In this document: positions 15,917 through 57,217 of the stretch, piece by piece
Layout: each line of letters begins with the position of its first letter
Position numbering within the stretch: the first letter of the stretch is position 1
Position numbers and translations under genes: made by a program
NCBI GenBank assembly: GCA_907163375.1
Contig: CAJQUW010005325.1
Span: 1-64,000 of the forward strand
Source: Prostheceraeus crozeri
Lineage: Eukaryota; Platyhelminthes; Polycladida; Euryleptidae
DNA length: 64,000 nucleotides
Reading direction: 5' to 3'
Notes under the pieces: generated by a model
The model's input: the letters and a program-made list of their open reading frames with translations, nothing else
Told to the model about the DNA's origin: nothing
Database searches by the model: none

Positions 15917-16780
15917 CCATCTGATGAACTCATTGATCACTTATCGTCTATAAAGAAGGACTTGTTTGAACGCATCGTTTGCTATCTGTAAGAAGAAACC
16001 TTACAAGAGCATCGCGTTCACTGCCTGTAAGAAAGGATCTGATGAGCGCATCGCTAACCGTCTACAAAGAAGTACCTGGTGAACACATCGCTAACCTTCA
16101 ATAAAGAAGGACCTGATGAACGCATCGTTGACTGTCTGTAAAAGAAGGACCTGATAAGTGCATCGCTAGCCATCTGTAAAGAAGGACTTGATAAGCGCAT
16201 CGCTAGGCGTCTGCAAAGAAGGACCTGATGAACGCATCGCTAACCTTCAATAAAGAAGGATCTGATGAGTGCATCGACAGCCTCCTTTGAAGAAGAACCT
16301 GATGAACGCATCGCTAACCTTCAATAAAGAAGGATCTGATGAACGCATCGACAGCCTTCTTTGAAGAAGAACCTGATGAACACATCGCTAACCTTCAATA
16401 AAGAAGGATCTGATGAACGCATCGACAGCCTTCTTTGAAGAAGAACCTGATGAACGCATCGCTAACTGTCTGTAAAAGGAGGACCTGATAAGTGCATTGC
16501 TAGCCATCTGTAAAGAAGGACTTGATGAACGCATCGCTAACCGTCTACAAAGAAGGACGTAATGAACGCATCGCTAGGCGTCTACAAAGAAGGACCTGAT
16601 GAATGCATCGATAAAACTGTCTACAAAGAAGGACCTGATGAGCGCATCGCTGATCGTCAGGAGGAAAGTAAATAAGCCTATTGGATACAGACATCTTTTA
16701 TCAGTTACCTAAAAATCTAATGAATATATCGTTATCCGTCTGTAAAAATAAACTGCGAACGCATTACTCACTGATTGTAC
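15917..16780. repeat. Minisatellite, ~37 bp unit, about 20 copies
   Basis: The core GATGAACGCATCGCTAACC, followed by a variable GTCTACAAAGAAGGACCT part, recurs about 20-22 times with point changes and small length differences. Between about 16225 and 16460 two alternating unit types form a higher-order repeat of about 75 bp: one ends CTTCAATAAAGAAGGATCT, the other has GACAGCCTTCTTTGAAGAAG. This dimer is repeated about three times and is more uniform than the rest. The edges decay gradually. The units contain stops in many copies, so it is not a coding repeat. Confidence 0.9.
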
Positions 16781-17551: not shown

Positions 17552-17734
17552 CAATGCAATTAACATTTCCAAAACGCTGCAAGTCAATATAGTCTAATTC
17601 GCATAGGTGCTTATTAGGGTTCGCAGCCCAGATGAAAATAAAGCTCGGGCTAGCAGGTTTCAAATATATTTGGAGCCCGGGCTCCCGGGCAGCCCGAATT
17701 TTTAAAGTTTGCTTTAAAGTTTTATAAAGCAAAT

Positions 17735-20345
17735 TTGTTCTGTGCATACGCGCCTACTGCTGTCCATCCAGAGGACGCTCGAGATTTTTTCGAATTTCTT
17801 TCTACAAATATAGACTCTTTGGCACAGCGGAACACTATGATCATTCTGGGTGATCTAAACGCCGTTATAAGAAAGTCTGATCTAGCTCCTTTCGTCAGCC
17901 CCCGTGAAAATGCCAATACTGACACTATAATGGACTTCATTTCACGCCATGACCTCGTTTCTGCAAACACTCAGTTTCGCAAGCCCCCACAACGCCTTGC
18001 TACATTTTTAGGCTGCAAACGTAGACGCCGCAACGCTACAGGAAGGAACGCAACAACAAGGCTGGCACAACTTGATTATGTGCTTATCCGGCGGAGAGAA
18101 CGCAGTAGGTTCAGTAACTGTGATACCATCATGCCCTCATCTCTTCCTACTGATCACAAACTGCTGTACTGTGATGTCCGACTTCGTGACCCACTCTTCC
18201 GACCACCGAGGTCACCTTTTAAGTATGATTTTCTCGCTCTACGTGAAGAAGAAACTCAACAACTCTTCTCTACGACTTTCTTATCAATCCTTAACAATTC
18301 AAATCATCCTAACAGCTACGGTGAAATTGCCGGGGCTGTCAAAACCACACTATAAAAGACAATACCCCTCGTTCGTCAGCCACATAGTGGACAACCAGTA
18401 TGGAAAAGTGACAAGGATGTGTTATCCGCTCAGTCGAAATTAGCGCACATCCGTCGATCCGGAAACTGCTGAGGCGAAAGAGGCACAGAAAGAACTTGCT
18501 CAAACTTACAAGGTTTGTCAGAGAGCTGCCCTGAACAAAGTCATTACCACAATAGCAGCGGCTGGCAGTGCGCGCAAGAACGATGCGGTCTGGACAGCCG
18601 TGAGAACACTGACGGGAAGAAGACGGAAAAGTGGAATCACCGTTTTTGGGGACACTCCTACTGCCCGCAAAGATGCAATTAAGGATTATTTCTCCGCAAC
18701 TTTGAATGCAGCCTCACCGAAATCGATCAACATGTCTTTCCCTCAATGTTCCGCTCTACCCTCTGAATCAGACTTCAATGTGACTCCGATAACTGTTGAT
18801 GAAATAATGCAACAGGCCATTCAAACCCCAGGAGGAAAATGTGCAGGACCAGATGGCGTGCCAGCTGAGGTACTAAGCATTCAATGTGTTGCTGAGCATC
18901 TTGTCGGGGTAATGAACAGTCTGATTCAGGGTAGACCAGCCCCACCAGAATGGACATCTGCTAATATCATCGGAGTGCCAAAGAAGCCAGGTACAACTCG
19001 ACTGGAAGAGCACAGAGGTATCTCGCTGATGTCATGTGCTGTAAAACTTTTTAACAAGATCATCTTGTCAAGGATTCGACCTGTCCTAGAACCCTACCTA
19101 AGATTCGAGCAAAATGGCTTTCGTCTGCACCGAAATACGACCTCACATATACTCTGTCTTCGGAGAATATTGGAGGAGTGTCGCATTCACCAACGTAATC
19201 TCGTCTGTGTTTTCGTGGATTTTCGCAAGGCCTTCGATTCCGTTTCTCGAAGCGCTCTCGCCGGTGTACTGCGAGCTTTCCGCGTTCCACCACTACTTGT
19301 GCATTCCATCATGGCACTTTACAGGGACACAAGAGCTGCGGTAATGACCAGCGACGGACCTACAGACACCTTTCCAACCACCTCTGGAGTCCTTCAAGGA
19401 GACACACTCGCACCGTTCTTGTTTGTGCTACTGCTAGACTGGATTCTCCATGACGCCATTCCCTCATACGAATACGGGCTGCTTCTAAGCCGTCGGAGGA
19501 GTCTTCGGCATCCCCAAAAGCGTCTGTCTGTCCTTGCATATGCTGATGACCTCGTACTATTGTCCTCAACGGTCGAAGGAGCAAAGAGTTTGGTCGCCAA
19601 CCTCCAGACTTCAGCAGCAAAAGTGGGCCTGTCAATCAACATCAAGAAGTCCAAAGTTATGACTATTCCATCTGATCTCAATGTTCACATCGAGTGCCGC
19701 GACATCGACGGTAGTGTAAAACGCTTTCCTCGATCAAACAGATTTGTCTATCTCGGCGGTGTTGTTCCATCAATCCAATCTGACATCGAGAGGCGAAGAT
19801 CTTTGGCCTGGACTGCCTTACGCTCTGTTAGGGTAGTCCTACAGAGTGAAGCGTTGCCTAATGCTCTCAGAATTCAACTCTTCTCATCAGTGATCGAGTC
19901 GGTGCTCCTTTACAATGCGGAAACCTGGACTCTAACAAGGACTCTCGAGAGGCGACTGGACTCCACCCATTCCGCTTTACTGCGCGCGGCTTTCTCCACA
20001 CGCTACACAGACAAAGTAAAGGCCGACGATCTGTATCGAAGGTGTGGGCTCATTCGACCGAGCCAGACCCTACAACAACGACGGTTGACTCTGTGCGGGC
20101 ATCTGGTTCGAGCAGAAGACTATTGTCGTGAACCGGCTCAAGACATCTTGTTCATGACTTCACATGAACCCCGTCGACGAGGACAGGCAAATTCTACGAC
20201 CTATGTCGACTGCCTATTTAAAGACGCTAGTGCTCCAGATCAAGTAAATGGCATTTCATATGTCAGACAGTTAGCCCGAGATCGGAAGATCTGACGCCTT
20301 TTGACGTAACTATGCATGTATGTATGTATGTTTATAAAGTATTCC
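17735..20345 (+). pseudogene. APE/RT non-LTR retrotransposon, 5'-truncated
   Basis: The 17735-18355 frame is the C-terminal half of an apurinic-type endonuclease: CAYAPT, GDLNA, RLAQLDYVLIRR and LPTDHKLLYCDV. The same frame resumes after a single TAA at 18353-18355. A frameshift near 18450 then leads into a 564-codon reverse transcriptase frame ending at 20294. Polymerase landmarks by residue in that frame: GPDGVPAE at 83-90, FVDFRKAFDSV at 205-215, SGVLQGDTLAPFLF at 262-275, and the catalytic AYADD at 313-317. The C-terminal RRLTLCGHLVRAED and the RRRGQ region match the RTE-type pattern, so RTE-like is my best clade guess. The N-terminal endonuclease and any ORF1 are missing; the 5' junction is near 17735, where the first codons have no ATG. 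A short (ATGT)n tail at about 20312-20332 marks the 3' end. GC content is clearly higher than the surroundings. Confidence 0.9.
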
Positions 20346-22283: not shown

Positions 22284-22763
22284 TCAATACGGGGTTGAGT
22301 GGAGGCCAAAGCAACGCGAGCGTCGGCTTCGACAGGCAGTATTTCTATATTCATGTTTTATGATAGAAATTTGACTGAATGCGGATTCACACTCCCAAGA
22401 TGTGGGGAAAATCAAAAATACTGAAAGAGCAGCTGCGGCTAACTTCGGAAACTGGTTCAGTCGTCGAATCCAGAACCCTGGATGGGATACATCCTCAAAC
22501 TCTCGTCTCAAGAGACGAATCTTCTTCATAACGATTATCTCTTCCTTCACTTCAACGTCGTCATCGGAGATTTGATCAGCGGCCTCACTGAAGGGGAATC
22601 TCACCCATTTCTTCAATTTCGCCGGAAATATAGAATAATTGTGGTCACACTTGTATAAGCATGGTCGATTTTTTACCCCAGCTGCACCGTTGATAATTCC
22701 CCCTTCCCTTCCCTCCCCCCAAAGAAATAGCTGTTCCCCCTGGGAAGGAATTCCCCCCGCCAC
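22284..22763 (-). pseudogene. hAT transposase C-terminus (dimerisation domain)
   Basis: The 159-codon reverse frame contains, in order, an acidic helix (ISDDDVEVKEEIIVMKK), then FWIRRLNQFPKLAAAALSVF, LIFPTSWECESAFSQISIIK and HEYRN. This is the hAT C-terminal dimerisation signature (Y/FP-L-A--AL---L-FP-T-CES-FS---IK---RN) as found in ZBED/FAM200-like hAT proteins. The DDE catalytic core and the BED finger are absent. The frame runs into unrelated C-terminal residues after RNTA, so the piece is a fragment. I see no evidence that it is domesticated. Confidence 0.75.
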
Positions 22764-23417
22764 TTTTGGAAAACACTGGACTGTATACGGCTAATAACTC
22801 TTCCGGCCGTCAAACCGCTTCAGCGTGCCGCATCGCAATACGGCAGAGTGTGACGATATCTGCCGTACATGTACCGTACATCAACTTTCCTGGTTAGACA
22901 TCGTGGACTCATATCCATGTATCATTCATGATAGATATTGTATCATAGTTGTCACAGCTGTTCAGACTATGACTCGCTATGTATATAGAATTTCAATGTA
23001 ATTGAGTTGGTAGCCTTGTGGAAGGCTGAGCTGTGAAGATGCTCGAATAAAGATTGACTTAATAAACAAATTTAGCTATAAGGTACCAAGCGTTACACAG
23101 AGACACTCATAAACAATGCCACTCTGTCATCCGAGCTTTAGCCTATTGGTAATTTTGTGAATTTTCAAGTTGAAACGCTATTGATAATGTTTCTTTCATT
23201 GACGACAACCTCAGTTTCTTTATGACTGCAATAGTCATTCTCCAGCACACAATGAGTGCATGCCGCCGATCTATCTGCATAATTAAGTGACGTTTAGCTT
23301 CTCGTCAACGATCAGCGAATCCACGACACTCATGTGGGTTAAATAATGAATATAAAGTCATTGTGTCAAAGCATATGAAACAGCTGATGAAGTCACTCGC
23401 GTTCGTGATAGTTGTAT
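22764..23417. other. Upstream flank of a tRNA gene, no protein gene seen
   Basis: The last ~200 bases (from about 23245) are a diverged copy of 25110-25250. They share GCATG-CGCCGATCT-TCT and GTGACGTTTA with CGATCAGCGA-TCCACG. The duplicated unit therefore carries upstream sequence as well as the tRNA gene. Confidence 0.5.
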
Positions 23418-23491
23418 GGTCCCATAGCTCAGTTGGTTAGAGCGTCGTGCTAATAACGCGAATGTCGAGGGTTCGAGCCCCTCTGGGACCA
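23418..23491 (+). tRNA. tRNA-Ile (anticodon AAT)
   Basis: Full cloverleaf. The acceptor GGTCCCA pairs with TGGGACC with A as discriminator base. The D arm is GCTC/GAGC with loop AGTTGGTTA. The anticodon stem TCGTG/CGCGA has loop CTAATAA, giving AAT read as IAU in the mature tRNA. The T arm is GAGGG/CCCTC with loop TTCGAGC. Internal A and B boxes match consensus. CCA is not encoded, and there is no intron. A run of six T follows at 23495-23500. Confidence 0.97.
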
Positions 23492-25280: not shown

Positions 25281-25354
25281 GGTCCCATAGCTCAGTTGGT
25301 TAGAGCGTCGTGCTAATAACGCGAATGTCGAGGGTTCGAGCCCCTCTGGGACCA
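25281..25354 (+). tRNA. tRNA-Ile (anticodon AAT), second copy
   Basis: The 74 bases are identical to the copy at 23418-23491, with the same arms, loops and AAT anticodon. An eight-base T run follows at 25356-25363. The flanks are a diverged duplicate of those at the first copy, while the gene body is unchanged; selection or gene conversion would explain this. Confidence 0.97.
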
Positions 25355-26485: not shown

Positions 26486-26488
<3 letters not shown>

Positions 26489-27410
26489 AAATCAAAACGA
26501 ATTGATTTGTGATGCACTACATGTTTCAGCATGTGCACATGCCATCTTCAGGTGAACAAAAGACTGTTTGACATTTAATCACTTAAATACAAAATCGAGA
26601 CATATCGGATGATGATCACTTTTCATACAATTCAACATTTATGGCGTCACGTTGTCTGGTCTCTTGCGTCAAGTCAAACAATAAAAGCAGTGAAATACAA
26701 GATTTAAAACAATAAAACTATTTACAGCTATTTACAGATTCAGGCATAGAGATATGGAGCTTCCCCGTTCATTCATCAGGTGGTCAATATTTGATTTCTT
26801 CAACAGGATAGATTCTAGAATTCTTGGATAGTACGTGCTAGAGACAATTGGCTTGAAAACTTTTCTTTCTGAGGAGGATGAATGTGCATCAGAACTGATT
26901 TCAGTGGGCGTTGGATAGCCCTTCAGATGCTCATTCATTCTCGTCACCAGATGCCGAACTGAACTACCGATGTAGCACTTGTCACAGTGCTCACACATGT
27001 ATTTGTAGACAATGTTAGATTTGAGTTCGGACGGCACTTTGTCTTTATTCGAGAAGAACATGCTAGTTTTCATAGTTTTGAAAACAGGACGAATTTTGAC
27101 ATTCGGAGGAATAATTTTGTTGATCTCTTTGATATGATTCAATAAATTGTTCTCACCTTCAGCAATGAAAGGGAAGCTCCAATTGAGTATGCGACACTCT
27201 AATGGATCTGAATTTTGAGTGAGAGTCCGGTTCTCATGTCTCGCCTCAACATCTTTACGAACGCGAGTAATTTCATATTCAGTGAAGCCATTTTTTTGAA
27301 AAATATTGCTGATGATAGAAACGGATTTTTGATAATTTCTGACGCTGGAATTTATTTTCAAAGCACGGTCAAAAAGAGATCTCATGGCGGCGAAGCGGTA
27401 TCGCTTAGGT
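26486..27410 (-). mobile_element. Penelope-like element A, 3' part
   Basis: A reverse-strand retroelement segment whose coding part is annotated separately (26732-27385). Its 3' untranslated region (26486-26731) carries a degenerate hammerhead-like fold at about 26514-26555 and ends at the (TA)n tract. The reverse transcriptase domain upstream is not present as an open frame; the 5' junction is near 27410, where an inverted copy of its own 3' end begins. Confidence 0.75.
26732..27385 (-). pseudogene. GIY-YIG endonuclease domain of a Penelope-like retroelement
   Basis: The 217-codon frame ends in a GIY-YIG nuclease module: NIVYKYMCEHC at 124-134 supplies the GIY equivalent (IVYKY) and a CxxC zinc knuckle. 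CYIGSS at 137-142 is the YIG block. RMNEH at 149-153 carries the conserved arginine and histidine. LESILLKK from 190 holds the metal-binding glutamate (E191). The CxxC between the GIY and YIG blocks is typical of Penelope-like elements and nicks target DNA during their retrotransposition. Residues 1-120 look like the linker after the polymerase; the polymerase itself is missing, so the protein is a fragment even though this frame is open. The ATG at 27385 is only the first available in the frame. Confidence 0.8.
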
Positions 27411-27424
27411 GAATACGCCGAATT

Positions 27425-27800
27425 AAATTGTCTCTAGCACGTACTATCCAAGAATTCTAGAATCTATCCTGTTGAAGAAATCAAATATTGACCACCTGAT
27501 GAATGAACGGGGAAGCTCCATATCTCTATGCCTGAATCTGTAAATAGCTGTAAATAGTTTTATTGTTTTATTGTATTTTACTGCTTTTATTGTTTGACTT
27601 GACGCAAGAGACCAGACAACGTGACGCCATAAATGTTGAATTGTATGAAAAGTGATCATCATCCGATATGTCTTGATTTGTTTGTATTTAAGTGATTAAA
27701 TGTCAAACAGTCTTTTGTTCACCTGAAGATGGCATGTGCACATGCTGAAACATGTAGTTGCATCTGAACAAATCAATACGTTTTGATTTTATCAAATTTA
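27425..27800 (+). mobile_element. Penelope-like element A, inverted partial copy
   Basis: This is a near-identical inverted copy of about 26490-26850. It includes the last codons of the nuclease frame (LESILLKKSNIDHLMNERGSSI), the 3' untranslated region and the hammerhead-like segment at about 27720-27760. It is truncated upstream at the point where the IVSSTYYPRILES segment starts. Together with the reverse copy it forms a head-to-head pair about 575 bp apart. Confidence 0.8.
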
Positions 27801-27819
27801 TTGGCCGCGGCATTGTTCA

Positions 27820-27821
<2 letters not shown>

Positions 27822-27875
<54 letters not shown>
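27822..27875. repeat. (AT)n microsatellite
   Basis: About 27 AT dinucleotides between the inverted copy of element A and the reverse copy of element B, mirroring the tract at 26421. Confidence 0.95.
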
Positions 27876-27880
<5 letters not shown>

Positions 27881-27889
27881 ATAAAATTC

Positions 27890-28190
27890 AGAGAGAACTA
27901 AAGCAAATGTATACATTTAAAAGAAAGAGAAAGTCGAGCTTCAATGGAAGGAATTTATTCGCAAACAAACATGTTTCACTGTGGCTGGCTGGCTTCTGCG
28001 ATTAAATGGAATGAATCATAGCAGCATATCAATTCAAAATAATCAGATATCACCTTAACAAAAACATATCATGATGTTAAACCTAAACCATTCAATGCAG
28101 CTTGAACTTCTCGATGAAACATAGACTCTTTATGTTCATGCTCACATCGCTCTACATTCGGTACATTCGGTTGGAAATGTCGCAAATACA
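27890..28190 (-). mobile_element. Penelope-like element B, 3' end (copy 2, reverse)
   Basis: Reverse complement of 26165-26420, with the same C-terminal codons, the CATGTTT block and TTTATTCGC in the tail. With copy 1 it forms the outer arms of a nested inverted structure spanning 26165-28190. Confidence 0.75.
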
Positions 28191-28859
28191 AATTTACCAA
28201 AAATCATGGGAACGTTCGCTATATTTGTTCGCTATTTGCAACTAAAACAACGTTTGTCTATCCAAAACTTTTGATAAACAATGCCATATAGAACGAGCTA
28301 AACTATCAAAAACATTGAAAATGAAAAAGTTGAAAATAAATTAAATTCCAGTGTGATTTCTTTTATCCATACCTAAATCCATACATCCTTCCTTTTCAAC
28401 TTTGTAATTAAAAAACACCACTGGATGTATTTTATACTCAGTTTGAGTATGCTTAATGCTTTTAAAAACTGCAGACAACTTATAGGCAACGAGATCCTGT
28501 TATCCGTGCTCAAATGAGAACAACCCGTATGAGCACTGAATGGGATTACGATATGCAATGGAGAAGTTATGTAAATGCTGTGCTAACATCATTGACTGGA
28601 TGTCAGTGGAGTTCATCATTGATAATGACAAGAAGGGAATTTGTGGAATTTGATTAAAAACATTGCTTCAATTGCAAATCTAAAGTTGTATAAGTTGCAG
28701 TGTAAGGTTGGCAAGAACTATATATTGGTCAACTGGCGATACTTTGCGCATCGCATCACTGTCCATAGGCAACATTTAATAATTCTAATTACGTATGTTA
28801 CATGTGAGTAGGCATATTGCTATGTGTGCCAGGGGACCTTCCATGAAAATTTGTATTTG
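28191..28859. other. Stretch without recognisable gene
   Basis: AT-rich sequence between two element-B copies. No frame with recognisable similarity was seen. Confidence 0.45.
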
Positions 28860-29130
28860 GCGCCATCTACAAGCTCAACCGAATGTATCCAAGCTAGAGC
28901 GGGTGAACTTAAGAGTCTATGTTCATCGAGAAGTTCAAGCCTGGCATTGAATGGTTTAGGTTTAAACATCATGATGATGTTTTTGTTAAGGTGATATCTG
29001 ATTAGTTTGATTGAATTTGCTTACTATGTATCATTCATTTAATCGCATTGAGAAGGCCAGCACAGCTGGTGAAACATGTTTGCGAATAAATTCCTTTCCA
29101 TTTGAGCTTGGGACTTTCTCTTTTGCTTTA
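28860..29130 (+). mobile_element. Penelope-like element B, 3' end (copy 3)
   Basis: Collinear with 26165-26420 with several single-base indels, including one that breaks the EKFKP-LN frame. It ends in a (TA)n-(TATC)n tract at 29129. Confidence 0.75.
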
Positions 29131-29169
29131 TATATATATCTATATCTATATATATATATGTGTGTGGTG

Positions 29170-29843: not shown

Positions 29844-29891
29844 GAGAGCGTTAATTAGCCAGCAGTGCCTTCCTGGCTAATTCACGCTCTC
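29844..29891. repeat. 19 bp-stem hairpin at the 5' side of the ribozyme element
   Basis: GAGAGCGTTAATTAGCCAG pairs with CTGGCTAATTCACGCTCTC with one mismatch and a 10-base loop. The right half of this hairpin is also present in the decayed copy at about 51600-51625, so at least that half belongs to the element. Confidence 0.75.
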
Positions 29892-29892
29892 A

Positions 29893-29970
29893 ACAGATGG
29901 TCCGGTGACCTTGCGGCTAGAGGGTATGCTTGCACGTCCTCTAGCTCCAACGTCGCTGGTTCAAACCTAC
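29893..29970 (+). promoter_or_regulatory. tRNA-like polymerase III internal promoter
   Basis: The B box GGTTCAAACC at 29958-29967 matches the tRNA consensus. An A-box-like GACCTTGCGGCTAGAGG lies about 40 bases upstream. CTAGAGG and CCTCTAG between them can pair as a 7 bp stem. The remainder does not fold as a full cloverleaf, so this is a SINE-type head, not a tRNA gene. Confidence 0.6.
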
Positions 29971-30012
29971 CCACGACTGATGAGGCCCAACAGGCCGAAA
30001 CATGTCTCGTGG
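29971..30012 (+). ncRNA. Hammerhead ribozyme (type I, minimal stem III)
   Basis: Every core element is present and in register. Stem I CCACGA (29971-29976) pairs perfectly with TCGTGG (30007-30012). The core CTGATGA is 29977-29983. Stem II GGCC/GGCC has loop CAACA (29984-29996). GAAA is 29997-30000. A very short stem III (AC-AT-GT, 30000-30005) leads to the GTC cleavage triplet, with predicted self-cleavage after C30006. A tiny stem III is typical of hammerheads in SINE-like and Penelope-like elements, which often act as dimers. This is a sequence-level prediction; activity is not shown. Confidence 0.85.
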
Positions 30013-30050
30013 TGGTTACAGCTGTTGAGATTTGATAAATATATATACCG

Positions 30051-31584: not shown

Positions 31585-31658
31585 GGTCCCATAGCTCAGT
31601 TGGTTAGAGCGTCGTGCAAATAACGCGAATGTCGAGGGTTCGAGCCCCTCTGGGGCCA
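31585..31658 (+). tRNA. tRNA-Ile (AAT) copy with altered anticodon loop
   Basis: Same 74-base gene as at 23418 and 25281 with two changes. The anticodon loop is CAAATAA instead of CTAATAA, so the nearly universal U33 is an A. The 3' acceptor strand is TGGGGCC, turning one A-U pair into a G-U pair. A T4 terminator follows at 31662-31665. The flanks are not a copy of the other two. U33 is needed for the anticodon U-turn, so this may be a pseudogene. Confidence 0.8.
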
Positions 31659-35010: not shown

Positions 35011-38000
35011 GATGGCTTGCAACCGCTGTTCACCTTGGTCGTTGCAACTTTGTGTATCTCTTGTGTCTTATGACTTCTCATTATGGCTGCTTTTAGATAC
35101 AATTTTTCCGCATTGCTTAATATTCGGAACAAAAAGTGTTGTTGTGTATCCCGACAAACTAGACGGCGACTTTTCTATCATGAGATTTATCATCGTCACA
35201 TACCTGTGGTTACTTCTGTGCGAATGGATGACTCTAGTATTTCTGATAAATATCATATTCAAAGACAGTTGGTTCCTATACCCAAGAGGCTTGGTCAATG
35301 ACGTTCCCGACGTCGTCCTGTTAGTTATCCCAATACTCGTCTTACACATACGAGGTCTTTTGCAAACAAGTTTGAAGAATTTAGTTTGCTTATTTCCCAG
35401 CACCAACCGGATATTGCGGTTGTTACAGAAATATGGCTGAACAACCTTGTGGATGATGTATCTATTAAACTGGATAACTACAGTCTGTTCCGAAGTGATC
35501 GTATTCTTGGTAGAGGAGGTGGAATAGCATGTTACCTTCAGGATCATTTCACTTCATACACAGTTGCAGAGGCATTACTTGTTTCTTCGGCATTTCCTAA
35601 AAAAGAATTGTTGTCAATATTCATTCAGGAATTATTTTTGGTTATCATTATGGTCTATCATCCTTACTGGAATAATCCCAGTGCTCACGATGGTGCTCTT
35701 ACGACCATGACCGCACTAACTGACTTCGTTCGAGTGAAATTTGGTCCATCATGTCGTCCTTTGGTTTGTGGTGATTTTAATGACTTACGTCATTATTACA
35801 ATGATATTCGAATCGCCACACAACTTTCTCCAATGGTTAAATTTCCTACACGTGGAGATCATGTTCTTGATCAGATTTTCGCAAATTTTGGAACTAACTG
35901 TAACCCTACCTCTTTACCACCGATTGGTTTGTCTGATCACAAGGTTGTGTTGTGGCAACTCACTGTGAAAACTGTACCTGTTGTTACTTTGAAAAAGAAG
36001 ATTTGCAAGTTATCTGTTTCGAATATGGTTAGATTTTTCGATTATGTGTCTACAGTGGACTGGAAGTCATTTATTCTTTCGTGTAAAAATTTGGAAGAGG
36101 CTGCAACCTTTTTCCATGGAGCCCTATTTTCTATATTTGATGCTTGTTTTCCTGAATGGACGATCAAACTGATGTCTACTGATCCGCATTGGATGAAACC
36201 GTCGCTAAAAGTGCTCATCGATGATCGAGACCGTGCATATTATCTTGGTCAGTGGACAAAGTATGAACGACTTAGAAATAAAGTCATCGCTGAAATTCAA
36301 TTTCTTAAGAAACATTATATCGACAGTGCACTTAACTCTGGCTGTCCTCGGAAGTTATGGAGTTCTTTAAAGGTCGTTTCTCGGCAATGCAAGAATTCTA
36401 CTTCTTTAAAATTTTCTGTTGAGGAATTCAATGACTACTTTACGTCGATTTTTCAGGACGTCAATGTTCCACTGAATGATAGCTCCTCTATATCTGGTGA
36501 GCCTCTAATTCTGTCAACTTCGGAGGTTGAATTGCATCTCTCCAAGCTATCAAAGAAAGGGGTGGGATTTGATGGGATTCCGTCTTGGATCTACCGTTGC
36601 TATGCTGGAGTTCTTTCGCCGGCTATTACGGTATTATTCAATTGGTCTTTTAGTAAGTGCTACGTTCCTCGTTCACTTAAAAGTGCAAATATTTGTCCTA
36701 TACCAAAGCGGGATCACCCCCGTGATATTTCAGACTATAGACCCATATCTTTGTTAACGCCATTGTCAAAAGTTTTTGAACGCATTGTTGTACGTAAACT
36801 TATTCTTCCTTTCATCGAAAGTAGTGTTAATTGTAATCAGTTTGCATACTTACCCTGTCCTGGAGCCGGGACTACTAGTGCTTTAGTTTTAACACAACAT
36901 AAAATTTTGTCGTTTTTAGACTCGGCATCAGGGTGTGTTCGTTTGCTGTCAGTAGACTTAGCAAAAGCTTTCGACAAAATTCCTCATAATGTGATTTTGA
37001 ATGCATGCAAGGGTCTGAGTAAAAATGGATTCCCAGTTTTTTATCCGAGAGAAGGCAACGTACTTTTATTAATAATGTTTTTTTTCTTGGTCACCCATTG
37101 CAAGTAGCATTCCGCAAGGTAGTGTCTTAGGGCCTATTTTATTTGCAATTGTTGTTAACGATTTTTGTCCTGTATCTCCTAACTCGTCTGTGATTCGTTA
37201 TGCAGATGATTTACTATTCCTGCATTTTGTGCGTAATGCCCAAGAGGATAATTTGCAAGCCGAATGGCTGAACTTCTTGAGCTGGTCAAGTTCTGTATAC
37301 TTACCTGTTAATGATTCCAAATGCTGTATTATGAACATTGTCACGAGGAGACATTTAACCCCAAACCCTGTTTCTCTTTCTGTTTATTCATCATTACCAG
37401 AAGTAGAGTATCTAACGTTTCTCGGTGTCATTATGTCTCGCGATTTAAAATGGAATCGCCATGTTGATTATATTACAAAGAAGGCACTAAAAAGATTTTT
37501 CATTCTGTACAATCTTCGGCGTGCGGACTGTCCGCCTATGTTATTGCGAAGGTGTTACATTTCATTATTTCATTTATTCGGTCTATTTTGACGTACTCGT
37601 ACGCATGTTTTTGCAATATTCCGCAGTATTTGTTAAAGAAGCTCATCGCAATAGAAAAAAAGAGCTTACGGAATTATTGGTTTGCCGTATGTTGAGGAAC
37701 TTTCTCCTGCTGTTGTTTGTGATAAAACGTGTGAAAGTCTTTTTTCTAAAATTGTAAAATATCAAGAGCATCCTTTGCGTGAACTATTTTCCATTCGTTC
37801 TTGTGTGAGAGCTACCAGAAGTAGTTGTATTTTGAATCCTTCGCCCACCGAGACTGAACGGTTCAGAAAGTCGTTCATTAGATTTTGTAGATAGTCTGTT
37901 TTTATGTATATTTTTACGACATTTTGTGCAGCCTTCTCTTCCTTTGTCTTTTTGTATATCTCGATTTATGTAATGTGCTCACCGAATTTGATCTGTTGAG

Positions 38001-50970: not shown

Positions 50971-51470
50971 GATTCCCTGTAAAAGTAACAAATGCAAAAG
51001 TGTTTAAATTGTAATTCCACATGGTCAATAGAATGTAACTTCTGACCATATTCTGATCGTGAGGATCTTAGTTAGACTGTCTCTCAGATTGCTGGAATTA
51101 GCTTCTTTTTCGTGATTTTCTTCAGCTGCTCGTTATAGAACTCGCAGCTTCAAGCTTTCTCATTCCTACATTGCCTTACTCAGTCAAGAATGAGTCAATG
51201 CAAGGTCATAATGAAGTGTGCGGCGATTTGAAAAAAATCGGAAAGTTATTTCAAAGTCATCATTAGGTACATTTTCGAACCAATCAGAATATTGTATTCA
51301 AGTTGTGTCGATGTAAACACACCAGAAATTGAAACCATTCGGCCAAATGGTCACAAAGTCTGCATTTAACCCAATTTGCAAGCGAACAGAAATTCCGTGT
51401 TGAAAGTCGAGACCAGTCATATAAAACTATGTGTGATGTCTCTTTTATCAAATCTCAGAAAAGATGTAAC
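50971..51470. other. Stretch without recognisable gene
   Basis: No frame with similarity and no element boundary was recognised. Confidence 0.4.
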
Positions 51471-51815
51471 CGCCACGATAGGCCTACATGTTTCGGCCCG
51501 TTGGGCCTCGTCATTCGTGGGTAGCTTTGAACCAGTGATGTTGGAGCTAGAAGACGTGCAAGCACACCCTCTAGCAACGAGGCCACTGGACCATCTGTTA
51601 AGACCTTGAATTAGCCAGGAAGGCACTGATTTAAAGCAGGCGCGTGGAGTGCGGATTGCTGTCTGCAACCACTTAATACCGAGATTAAGCGCTTCATGAC
51701 GTGCTAAGACGAGCAACCTGGCAGTGAAGCTCAACAGGCCGAAACATTTGTCGTGTTTTGTCGTGGCTATATGTGCGTATGTGTTGAGATTTGATAAATT
51801 TATCAGTTGCCATAT
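51471..51815. mobile_element. Decayed, rearranged copy of the hammerhead element
   Basis: The reverse complement of 51471-51625 follows 29866-30012: hairpin right half, ACAGATGGTCC, tRNA-like head with GGTTCAAAG, and a hammerhead relic. In that relic the core is ATGACGA instead of CTGATGA, the cleavage triplet is GTA, and six extra bases split stem I. A second, forward piece at about 51724-51800 carries the right part of the ribozyme (CAACAGGCCGAAACAT) and the TTGAGATTTGATAAAT tail. The two pieces are head to head. The core changes make self-cleavage unlikely. Confidence 0.65.
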
Positions 51816-55643: not shown

Positions 55644-56657
55644 TCAATAGCGCGTGTGCCCCCCTCTAGCTCCAATACATTCAGTAATCCGAGATGGCAT
55701 GGATTCACAAAGTTTCTGAATGAAGGATGTTTCAAGGAGAAGCCACTGCTCTGTCAGTATTTCAGAGAGAATCTTCAGGGACACTGGTGGAAGTGAATAG
55801 CAGTCTCTCACTCGCCGCCCAAGCTCGTCCCAGACTTGTTCAATGGGTGACAAGTCAGGTGAGCGTGTAGGCCAGTCAAGGGTTTGAATGTTCAATCTCC
55901 TAACAGTGGCAATGACAGCCGAGGAGCGATGTGGTCTTGCGTTGTCGTCTTGGAAGACGAGATCCTCCACCCTGACCACTGGGGCAACAACAGGAAGCAC
56001 AATTTCATTGAGATACCTCTCTCCAGTCAACGTGTCTTTGATGATGACTGCTGTCGTTCGTCCGCCATGCCAAATGCCATCCCACAGCATAACACATCCA
56101 CCACCATATCTGTAGTGTTCTTTAATACAGCATGGGGCAAAGCGTTGACCTGGAAGACGATGCACTCTGACACGATCGTCATTGAAATCCAGAGTGAATC
56201 TCGATTCATCGGTCCACAAGACTTTCTGCCAGTGATGATCATTCCATGAGCGATGGGCATCACACCAAGCAACTCGTCTTCTGCGGTGCTCAAAACTCAA
56301 TGGAATTAGGACAGTTGGTCGTCGCGATTGAATTCCAGCTTCTCGCAATCTTCGATAAGCCGTTCGAACGCTACAGTCTATATTTGAGGCACTCTTCCAG
56401 TGTACGACTAGCTTTGGGACTGACACAAATCTATTCCTCTTTGCAGCTAAAACTAGACGTGCGTCTGTCCTTCCTGCAGACTTTCTTGGTCGACCAGATC
56501 CCTTCTTCTTTTTAACATCTCCTTCTGCTTTCCATCGACACCACCACCTCCAAACAACGACTCTCGATAGTTGCAGCTCTTCGGCAACACTCGCACAACT
56601 TCTACCACAACGAATCATTCCAATAGCCATACCTTTGGTAAACTGATCGTGTGCCAT
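55644..56657 (-). CDS. Tc1-type transposase, intact (DD34E)
   Basis: A 337-residue uninterrupted frame, the usual length of a Tc1 transposase, which cuts and rejoins element ends at TA sites. Residues 1-50 form the first helix-turn-helix (ASVAEELQLSRVVVWRWW). GSGRPRKS at 53-60 is the GRPR hinge between the two DNA-binding subdomains. The second helix region (VSVPKLV, TAYRRLREAGI) follows to about 110. The catalytic triad is D150 in LWTDESRF, D238 in FQDDNARPH and E273 in SPIEQVW, exactly 34 residues between the last two. The sole start is the ATG at 56657. GC content is well above the flanks. Terminal inverted repeats were not located, so mobility is unproven. No stop or missing key residue is seen. 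Confidence 0.93.
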   Translation of the reverse strand: MAHDQFTKGMAIGMIRCGRSCASVAEELQLSRVVVWRWWCRWKAEGDVKKKKGSGRPRKSAGRTDARLVLAAKRNRFVSVPKLVVHWKSASNIDCSVRTAYRRLREAGIQSRRPTVLIPLSFEHRRRRVAWCDAHRSWNDHHWQKVLWTDESRFTLDFNDDRVRVHRLPGQRFAPCCIKEHYRYGGGCVMLWDGIWHGGRTTAVIIKDTLTGERYLNEIVLPVVAPVVRVEDLVFQDDNARPHRSSAVIATVRRLNIQTLDWPTRSPDLSPIEQVWDELGRRVRDCYSLPPVSLKILSEILTEQWLLLETSFIQKLCESMPSRITECIGARGGHTRY

Positions 56658-57217
56658 TTTATTTTACAAAAGCTGGATTTCAGTTCAAGTTTATGTTCAA
56701 TTTGTAAAAGCAATTGTGACAGTTGTATCGATATCAAAATTTGAAATTTGACCACCATAGATCTTTCTCCATTCTCTATTATCAAACTCCCTTCCTATCT
56801 CCACTATGTTGAACTATGCGTTCTACATTTTCTAATGTAGAACGGAATTTTCTATGAATCAAAATACATGTAATCCAATGGCTACCGTGCTACATTTTTT
56901 TACCCTACAATGCACCCAAATTGCAAGTAAGCTTAGATGATATCTTGGGTATAGATAATAAGGCTACACCTCATGCAAATGCCAGTTAAATATCGGTTCA
57001 CTTGAAATTTCAAATGAAGGAAATGCACATAGAAGTAGATAATAGTACTTTCTATGGTATTGTTAATTTCTATGGAAATGCATGACATCAATATTGGATA
57101 GGCTATCTACTAGGACTTTGGATGCCATGGAAAGCCAACCACGTTTGTGTTCTTAGCAGATTGTCTATATCGTCACTGGTCCATAGAGTTCATTGACATT
57201 TCTTGATCGTTTGATAA
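56658..57217. other. Flank of the Tc1 gene, no gene seen
   Basis: A short perfect hairpin TTCTACATTTTCTAATGTAGAA occurs at about 56821-56842. ATAGAAA and TTTCTATG boxes recur at 57025-57075, similar to the MITE ends at 58954. No complete element could be delimited. Confidence 0.4.

Follow-up and report, generated by a model that had tools for sequence, protein, structure and literature searches.

What kind of element carries the hammerhead ribozyme at positions 29971-30012 of a 64,000-nucleotide (nt) stretch of the Prostheceraeus crozeri genome (contig CAJQUW010005325.1; the whole stretch is called the window below), and by what route has it spread? A sequence-only reading had placed the ribozyme downstream of a tRNA-like promoter, in a short element next to Penelope-like elements (PLEs), and had suggested a new hammerhead retroelement family. 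We observed the ribozyme in arrays of a 303-base-pair (bp) repeat, within insertions that have divergent arms and two fixed, paired ends. Our reading, to which we give a probability of about 0.8, is that the 303-nt unit is a non-coding metazoan retrozyme of the kind without long terminal repeats (non-LTR), which would be mobilised in trans, through circular RNA, by PLEs of the same genome.

The ribozyme and its 303-bp unit

All core positions, the 6-bp stem I, the 4-bp stem II and the GTC triplet that had been reported are present in 29971-30012, laid out as CCACGA / CTGATGA / GGCC-CAACA-GGCC / GAAAC-AT-GTC / TCGTGG, with a predicted cut after C30006. An outer stem I (AACC at 29964-29967 paired with GGTT at 30014-30017) extends this type I hammerhead to 29964-30017 on the forward strand and overlaps the box B described below. 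The core pattern alone proves little, because 0.41 occurrences are expected by chance in the window and the bare pattern was present in 24 of 100 shuffles. The hammerhead is nevertheless real: we count it as genuine because its exact 30-nt motif occurs 1807 times (976 + 831) in the 2.05-Gb host assembly, against 0 for the reversed control. A relaxed-core scan in which the stems were required found no second hammerhead site in the window.

The sequence-only reading had named two absences that would count against it, that of a hammerhead covariance hit above threshold and that of further genomic copies sharing the head and the ribozyme. The first is what we found: Rfam RF02275 (Hammerhead_HH9) matched 29961-30026 at 33.7 bits and E 8.8e-7 in a 501-base search, below its curated cut-off of 52 bits, and a whole-window Rfam scan at the gathering threshold listed no hammerhead. 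The second was not found; many copies holding both head and ribozyme are present in the host assembly, and they support the proposal of a hammerhead retroelement.

Stem III consists of a single C-G pair (beside the core A-U) over a 2-nt loop, and the place of a normal stem III is taken by an ACAUGU palindrome with a duplex energy of -6.0 kcal/mol. Cleavage probably proceeds as a dimer, because ACAUGU is palindromic, as in the minimal hammerheads of newts and PLEs, which function as dimers and have the same very weak stem III with a palindrome according to the available parts of PMC7229834 and PMC7761336. Unlike those ribozymes, the one predicted here has loops 1 and 2 that resemble HH9.

The repeat unit measures 303 bp. 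Twenty-nine of 35 full units taken from 38 sampled loci were exactly this long, the spacing between ribozymes on the same strand was 303 in 34 of the 35 cases that the first 100 listed places provided, and of 192 units anchored on the sequence immediately ahead of the ribozyme 180 had it intact. Because the unit is only 303 bp, no LTR pair or transposition gene fits in it. What had been taken for a short element is actually one truncated unit of this repeat, which forms tandem, divergent arrays. The window copy comprises unit positions 1-180 (29861-30040, forward strand), ends at the first of two start sites (GATAAA) against TATATA, and matches the family consensus at 97.3% over 29861-30044, with the agreement of the last few bases, within TATATA, due to chance. 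Folding of the consensus as a circle predicts a helix around the head and the ribozyme, its left side at 29890-29897 (CTCAACAG) pairing with its right side at 30022-30029 (CTGTTGAG), both on the forward strand; in the family consensus this helix is 12 bp long. An inverted piece of the unit's own 5' part (29844-29862, reverse strand) forms a 19-bp hairpin with 29873-29891 in this copy only. We rejected a conserved 5' hairpin at 29844-29891, since other copies are without its 5' arm and match only from query position 18, and for the missing arm also a Helitron end (CTAA after the hairpin on the other strand).

The head contains a box A-like motif at 29906-29916 (forward strand; consensus TGGCCTTGTGG, one mismatch to TRGYNNARNNG) and a box B at 29959-29967 (forward strand; GTTCAAACC, no mismatch to GWTCRANNC), the end of which forms one side of outer stem I. 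The two boxes are 53 nt apart in the consensus, and a comparable pair arose in 6 of 400 shuffles. Transcription by RNA polymerase III (pol III) from the A/B boxes within each unit is plausible on this pattern. The description of the head as tRNA-like held for these pol III-type boxes and found no support for the tRNA itself: no match to the Rfam tRNA model (RF00005) was found in the head at E up to 10 and ARAGORN listed no tRNA there, so a tRNA cloverleaf is unsupported. The consensus contains no TTTT on either strand.

Two-armed insertions with paired ends

Genomic copies were gathered in two samples. The query for sample 1 was a unit ending at 180 and in TATATA; 40 of 576 candidates were scored, 43 matches were listed, and every listed match outside the window was taken, giving 38 loci of which 11 were extended to longer stretches. 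This query favours one 180 end and TA targets and leaves the other end free. For sample 2 an older internal copy served as query, 40 of 426 candidates were scored, and 11 of 39 places outside the window were taken.

The 38 loci of sample 1 contained 40 insertions, 30 of them two-armed with the arms head to head (3' ends outward) and 10 single-armed. In 29 of the 30 head-to-head insertions one outer end lay at unit position 180 and the other at 208; the remaining insertion (L026) was 180/180. Against a half-and-half chance this mixed pairing has p 5.8e-8, if the loci are independent. Sample 2 agreed, with 180/208 ends in all three clear head-to-head insertions, and its seven clear single arms had the 208 end in four cases and the 180 end in three; a further locus (L077) had a 180 end with a short inverted piece and an unclear arm class. 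In the first 100 listed places, ribozymes that changed strand within 700 bases did so divergently in 13 cases and convergently in two, one of the latter falling between two separate arrays of C274. Few target-site duplications (TSDs) were observed: three of 22 insertions examined had one, of 10-11 bp in L074, 13 bp in L078 and 14 bp in the head-to-head L079. No poly-A end was present among the retrozyme insertion ends inspected. We judge an assembly or palindromic-read artefact unlikely, because an insertion has unlike flanks on its two sides and its arms stop at different positions.

The single-armed insertions of sample 1 had their inner end at unit 177-237 in 8 of 10 cases, about one lap from the start, and perhaps the polymerase stops in these on reaching its own start. 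The eight loci are L010, L015, L018, L020, L026, L027, L038 and L046, all with start site 180.

Two explanations that dispense with PLEs can be weighed against this architecture. The first is amplification at the DNA level, a satellite spread by unequal crossing-over or DNA circles. It would yield the homogeneous tandem arrays, and is contradicted by dispersed insertions with different flanks, by the two fixed ends and some TSDs, and by the proportion of anchored units with an intact ribozyme; we regard it as extremely improbable. The second, near the sequence-only reading, is an ordinary tRNA-derived short interspersed element (SINE) moved by a long interspersed element (LINE) through a shared 3' tail. 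Its model is the schistosome SM-alpha elements, repeats of about 300 bp that combine a pol III-type head with a type I hammerhead and are likened to the retrozyme by description only. The spaced A/B boxes and the LINE-type reverse transcriptases in the window speak for such a SINE; the 303-bp tandem arrays with divergent arms, the two fixed ends resembling PLE ends, the lack of a tRNA-model match and the lack of poly-A among the ends inspected speak against it, and we consider it very unlikely.

Penelope-like elements and the template

The neighbouring PLEs noticed in the sequence-only reading are indeed there, with PLE1 and PLE2-like fragments adjoining the retrozyme unit in the window. PLE1 forms a head-to-head pair between TA tracts, with a tail on one arm and none on the other: the arm without tail occupies 26486-27433 (reverse strand), adjoins a TA tract and contains an open frame at 26732-27433 (GIY-YIG region), and the arm with tail occupies 27426-27822 (forward strand) and adjoins a TA tract. 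The frame matched Pfam GIY-YIG at E 0.0013, under the curated cut-off (seen at E 10, not at E 0.001), and a PDB search with it gave no match at E 0.01. A young PLE1 copy matched RVT_1 (E 3.8e-6) and then GIY-YIG (E 0.0022), just under the Pfam curated cut-offs. Among 11 distinct PLE1 loci, gathered with a tail-bearing query, both arms were seen in eight and all eight had one arm with and one without tail; the end without tail comes 16 nt earlier in L065. A second PLE family (73% protein identity; open 836-amino-acid frames) had both kinds of end in a single array that was read through. At G000 C1140:1049578-1066043, units with such frames, spaced 2754 bp apart, run four on one strand and then two on the opposite strand. 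By its sequence this is a divergent tandem array of an autonomous element. PLE frames of 836-868 amino acids are open in this genome. PLE strand changes within 6 kb were divergent in 30 of 30 cases among 150 listed places. The same kinds of end are thus observed in PLEs as in the retrozyme.

The available text on other PLEs describes features of this kind. In the anole PLE reverse transcription begins at two adjacent internal sites, the tail being the stretch between them, AT-rich DNA is cut and extended on both of its strands, and the start site showed no difference between strands (Frangieh et al. 2024, PMC11167929). According to Arkhipova et al. 2013 (PMC3846280), PLEs also occur as head-to-head inverted repeats, one of which may carry a tail, with TSDs of 8-10 bp. 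As far as the accessible portions of these two papers go, the retrozyme shares with GIY-YIG PLEs the two adjacent internal start sites, the optional, one-sided tail, an apparent priming on both strands, AT-rich targets, head-to-head inverted repeats and a hammerhead upstream of the start sites, and we count their TSDs of 8-10 bp as a likeness too. In the retrozyme the predicted ribozyme cut is 62 nt away from the end of the tail; in PLE1 the distance would be 57 nt, if PLE1 is cut after GUA. Unlike these PLEs, the retrozyme encodes nothing and is 303 nt long, and its strict pairing of ends and many laps are not among the PLE features described in those portions (PMC11167929, PMC3846280). The match of its insertion scars to PLE scars suggests that the retrozyme spreads as RNA circles copied by PLE enzymes.

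The course of events would be as follows. Multi-unit arrays would be transcribed, by pol III from the A/B boxes, and the hammerhead, acting as a dimer through the ACAUGU palindrome, would cut the transcript into 303-nt monomers. A host ligase would close these into circles, a step demonstrated for the coral, mussel and axolotl retrozymes according to the available parts of PMC7229834. A PLE protein, here acting on retrozyme RNA, would cut both strands of AT-rich DNA, and reverse transcription would begin from two internal RNA sites, unit 180 and 208 (34 and 62 nt 3' of the ribozyme cut), one per target strand. Each complementary DNA (cDNA) would circle the template for anything from less than one lap to about 17, after which end joining would unite the two cDNAs head to head.

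Evidence on the template comes from the interior of the insertions. Only one of 60 inner arm ends fell at unit 144-149, around the predicted ribozyme cut after unit 146; the longest uninterrupted arm measured 16.2 units, and an arm of L047 reaches about 17 with a rearranged piece. With so few inner ends at the cut and arms of 16-17 units, the template is not a cut linear monomer. In long arrays we observed variants in both arms, fixed through the array: in 2/2 and 17/17 units of L047, 7/8 and 10/10 of L051, 5/5 and 7/7 of L052, and 2/2 and 5/5 of L056. Variants common to both arms, on few units, were also found in L037, L045 and L009. Among the 13 pairs with both arms at least 300 nt long, the six shared variants were matched in 1 of 200000 arm permutations, a test that left unshared variants out. 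This recurrence suggests that both arms copied one circular RNA. Arm lengths within an insertion correlated as well (log r 0.74 over 29 pairs, reached in 0 of 100000 permutations).

A single circle has a competitor in a long uncut multimeric transcript, or in several clonal circles of one source locus. The passage of arms through the ribozyme cut fits it, a homogeneous source array would likewise yield homogeneous arms, and one variant, G278T, occurs in two sampled arrays (L045 and L047). Set against this, variants such as those found in L051, L052 and L056 are fixed in both arms, in almost every unit, and each was observed in a single array, and arms of 16-17 units would require transcripts near 5 kb. 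We think such templates rather unlikely.

The 30 inner junctions comprised 11 with 1-5 nt of microhomology, 2 that were blunt and 17 with filler, and inner positions were mirrored (within 12 nt in the unit) in 2 of 30 pairs, with 2.5 expected by chance. Because of these microhomology and filler junctions and the chance level of mirroring, we favour end joining of two cDNAs over fold-back. Fold-back self-priming of one cDNA, or of an antisense template, in place of priming on two strands, would also predict array variants common to both arms, and self-priming has been proposed for head-to-head rotifer PLEs (Arkhipova et al. 2013, in the available part of PMC3846280). Mirrored inner positions are what it predicts, however, and one 180 end with one 208 end is not; neither do junctions with microhomology or filler fit it. 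The mirror-like form was rejected on the junctions and the mirroring, and we hold fold-back altogether to be improbable.

For the two-armed insertions of the PLE-mobilised retrozyme we offer a tentative view, to which we give somewhat less than even odds, that one circular RNA is copied by two reverse transcriptases simultaneously. A PLE dimer would load at the start sites 28 nt apart, each copy would be primed by one target strand, and both would travel round the circle in one direction, completing about as many laps as each other, before being end-joined head to head. This would account for the strictness with which 180 and 208 are paired, for the variants common to both arms and for the correlation between arm lengths. 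If it is true, the PLE tail would be the footprint of a loading platform for two polymerases.

Several observations weigh against mobilisation by PLEs through RNA circles. Over all 30 pairs, seven variants were common to both arms and 28 were not; among the 13 pairs with longer arms six were shared and 11 were not. These 11 all come from L016 and L045, two loci with arms of just one to three units, and one of them, C229T in L045, was carried by 2/2 units of one arm and by none of the other. L026 departs from the pairing with its 180/180 ends. The TA targets of sample 1 are partly selected, because its query ended in TATATA, and in sample 2 clear TA tracts adjoin only 4 of 11 loci (L075, L077, L080 and L082). 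Seven of the 22 insertions examined had no TSD, and 12 lay in TA-rich sequence, where one is unreadable. The consensus has 50.5% GC and animal retrozymes have under 45-50%, a descriptive and not a defining trait. The reverse transcriptase and GIY-YIG matches of the PLEs fall just under Pfam's curated cut-offs. Finally, the scores of the retrozyme tail against the PLE1 and PLE2 tails were reached by 182 and 141 of 1000 shuffles, respectively. As a partner identified by tail sequence PLE1 and PLE2 were therefore rejected, and a PLE is indicated but no partner PLE is named, because the tails are not significantly alike.

The family appears to be new, as had been suggested, but the kind is known. 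In the sections available of Cervera and de la Pena 2020 (PMC7229834), the metazoan non-LTR retrozymes of coral, mussel and axolotl are also non-coding tandem repeats, of 150-450 bp, that carry a type I hammerhead, and likewise occur as dimers to large multimers, dispersed, in animal genomes that contain PLEs too. The present family differs from them in its divergent two-arm arrays with paired fixed ends, its A/B boxes and its 50.5% GC. A 2020 review, in its accessible part, states that animal retrozymes seem to be without a promoter and that no conserved motif betrays their autonomous partner (PMC7761336). The family described here bears on both points, through its pol III-type boxes and its PLE-type insertion fingerprint. 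We found no report of retrozymes with PLE-type ends or divergent arrays in open-licence PubMed Central, covered mostly as titles and the starts of abstracts. The arrays may also serve as a natural record of PLE insertion, from which start-site pairing, template laps and end joining can be read.

Other features of the window and host

Two older copies of the unit lie elsewhere in the window. Copy B (51444-51696, reverse strand) matches the consensus at 84% and ends without tail; its stretch 51628-51444 gave an identity of 85% over 185 bases. It was rejected as a second working ribozyme, since its core is mutated in the alignment and gave no hammerhead match. Copy C (51725-51812, forward strand; 74% to the consensus) is decayed, stands head to head with B and keeps a tail-like 3' end. 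Two PLE2-like fragments, named by inspection only, occupy 27876-28195 (reverse strand, with tail) and 28847-29138 (forward strand, without tail). Outside the window, one TA tract at about 2930-3001 of L069 is common to PLE1 and a retrozyme end.

The host had been thought to belong to a marine phylum different from that of schistosomes. This is not established by the mitochondrial code. In mitochondrial COX1 the codon ATA stands for Ile (13 Ile and 3 Met in the alignment), AGA for Ser and TGA for Trp, and AAA aligned with one Lys and one Asn. These readings are presumably compatible with the echinoderm, hemichordate or flatworm mitochondrial codes, so that flatworms, the group to which schistosomes belong, also fit. 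The mitochondrial stretch (L083) has the order A-M-cox2-P-V-W-cox1-G on one strand, with a divergent COX1.

Three near-identical tRNA-Ile (AAT) genes were observed in the window on the forward strand, at 23418-23491, 25281-25354 and 31585-31658; the first two fall within a repeat of about 270 bases. At 17654-20294 and 35302-37591 (forward strand) are LINE-like frames that match endonucleases and reverse transcriptases. An open 339-amino-acid frame of a Tc1/mariner-type transposase (HTH_Tnp_Tc3_2 and DDE_3) lies at 55644-56663 on the reverse strand, and at 22284-22790 on the same strand is what remains of a hAT transposase dimerisation region (E 0.00037, which is below the curated cut-off). A 37-bp unit is repeated in tandem in about 17 copies at 16033-16658.
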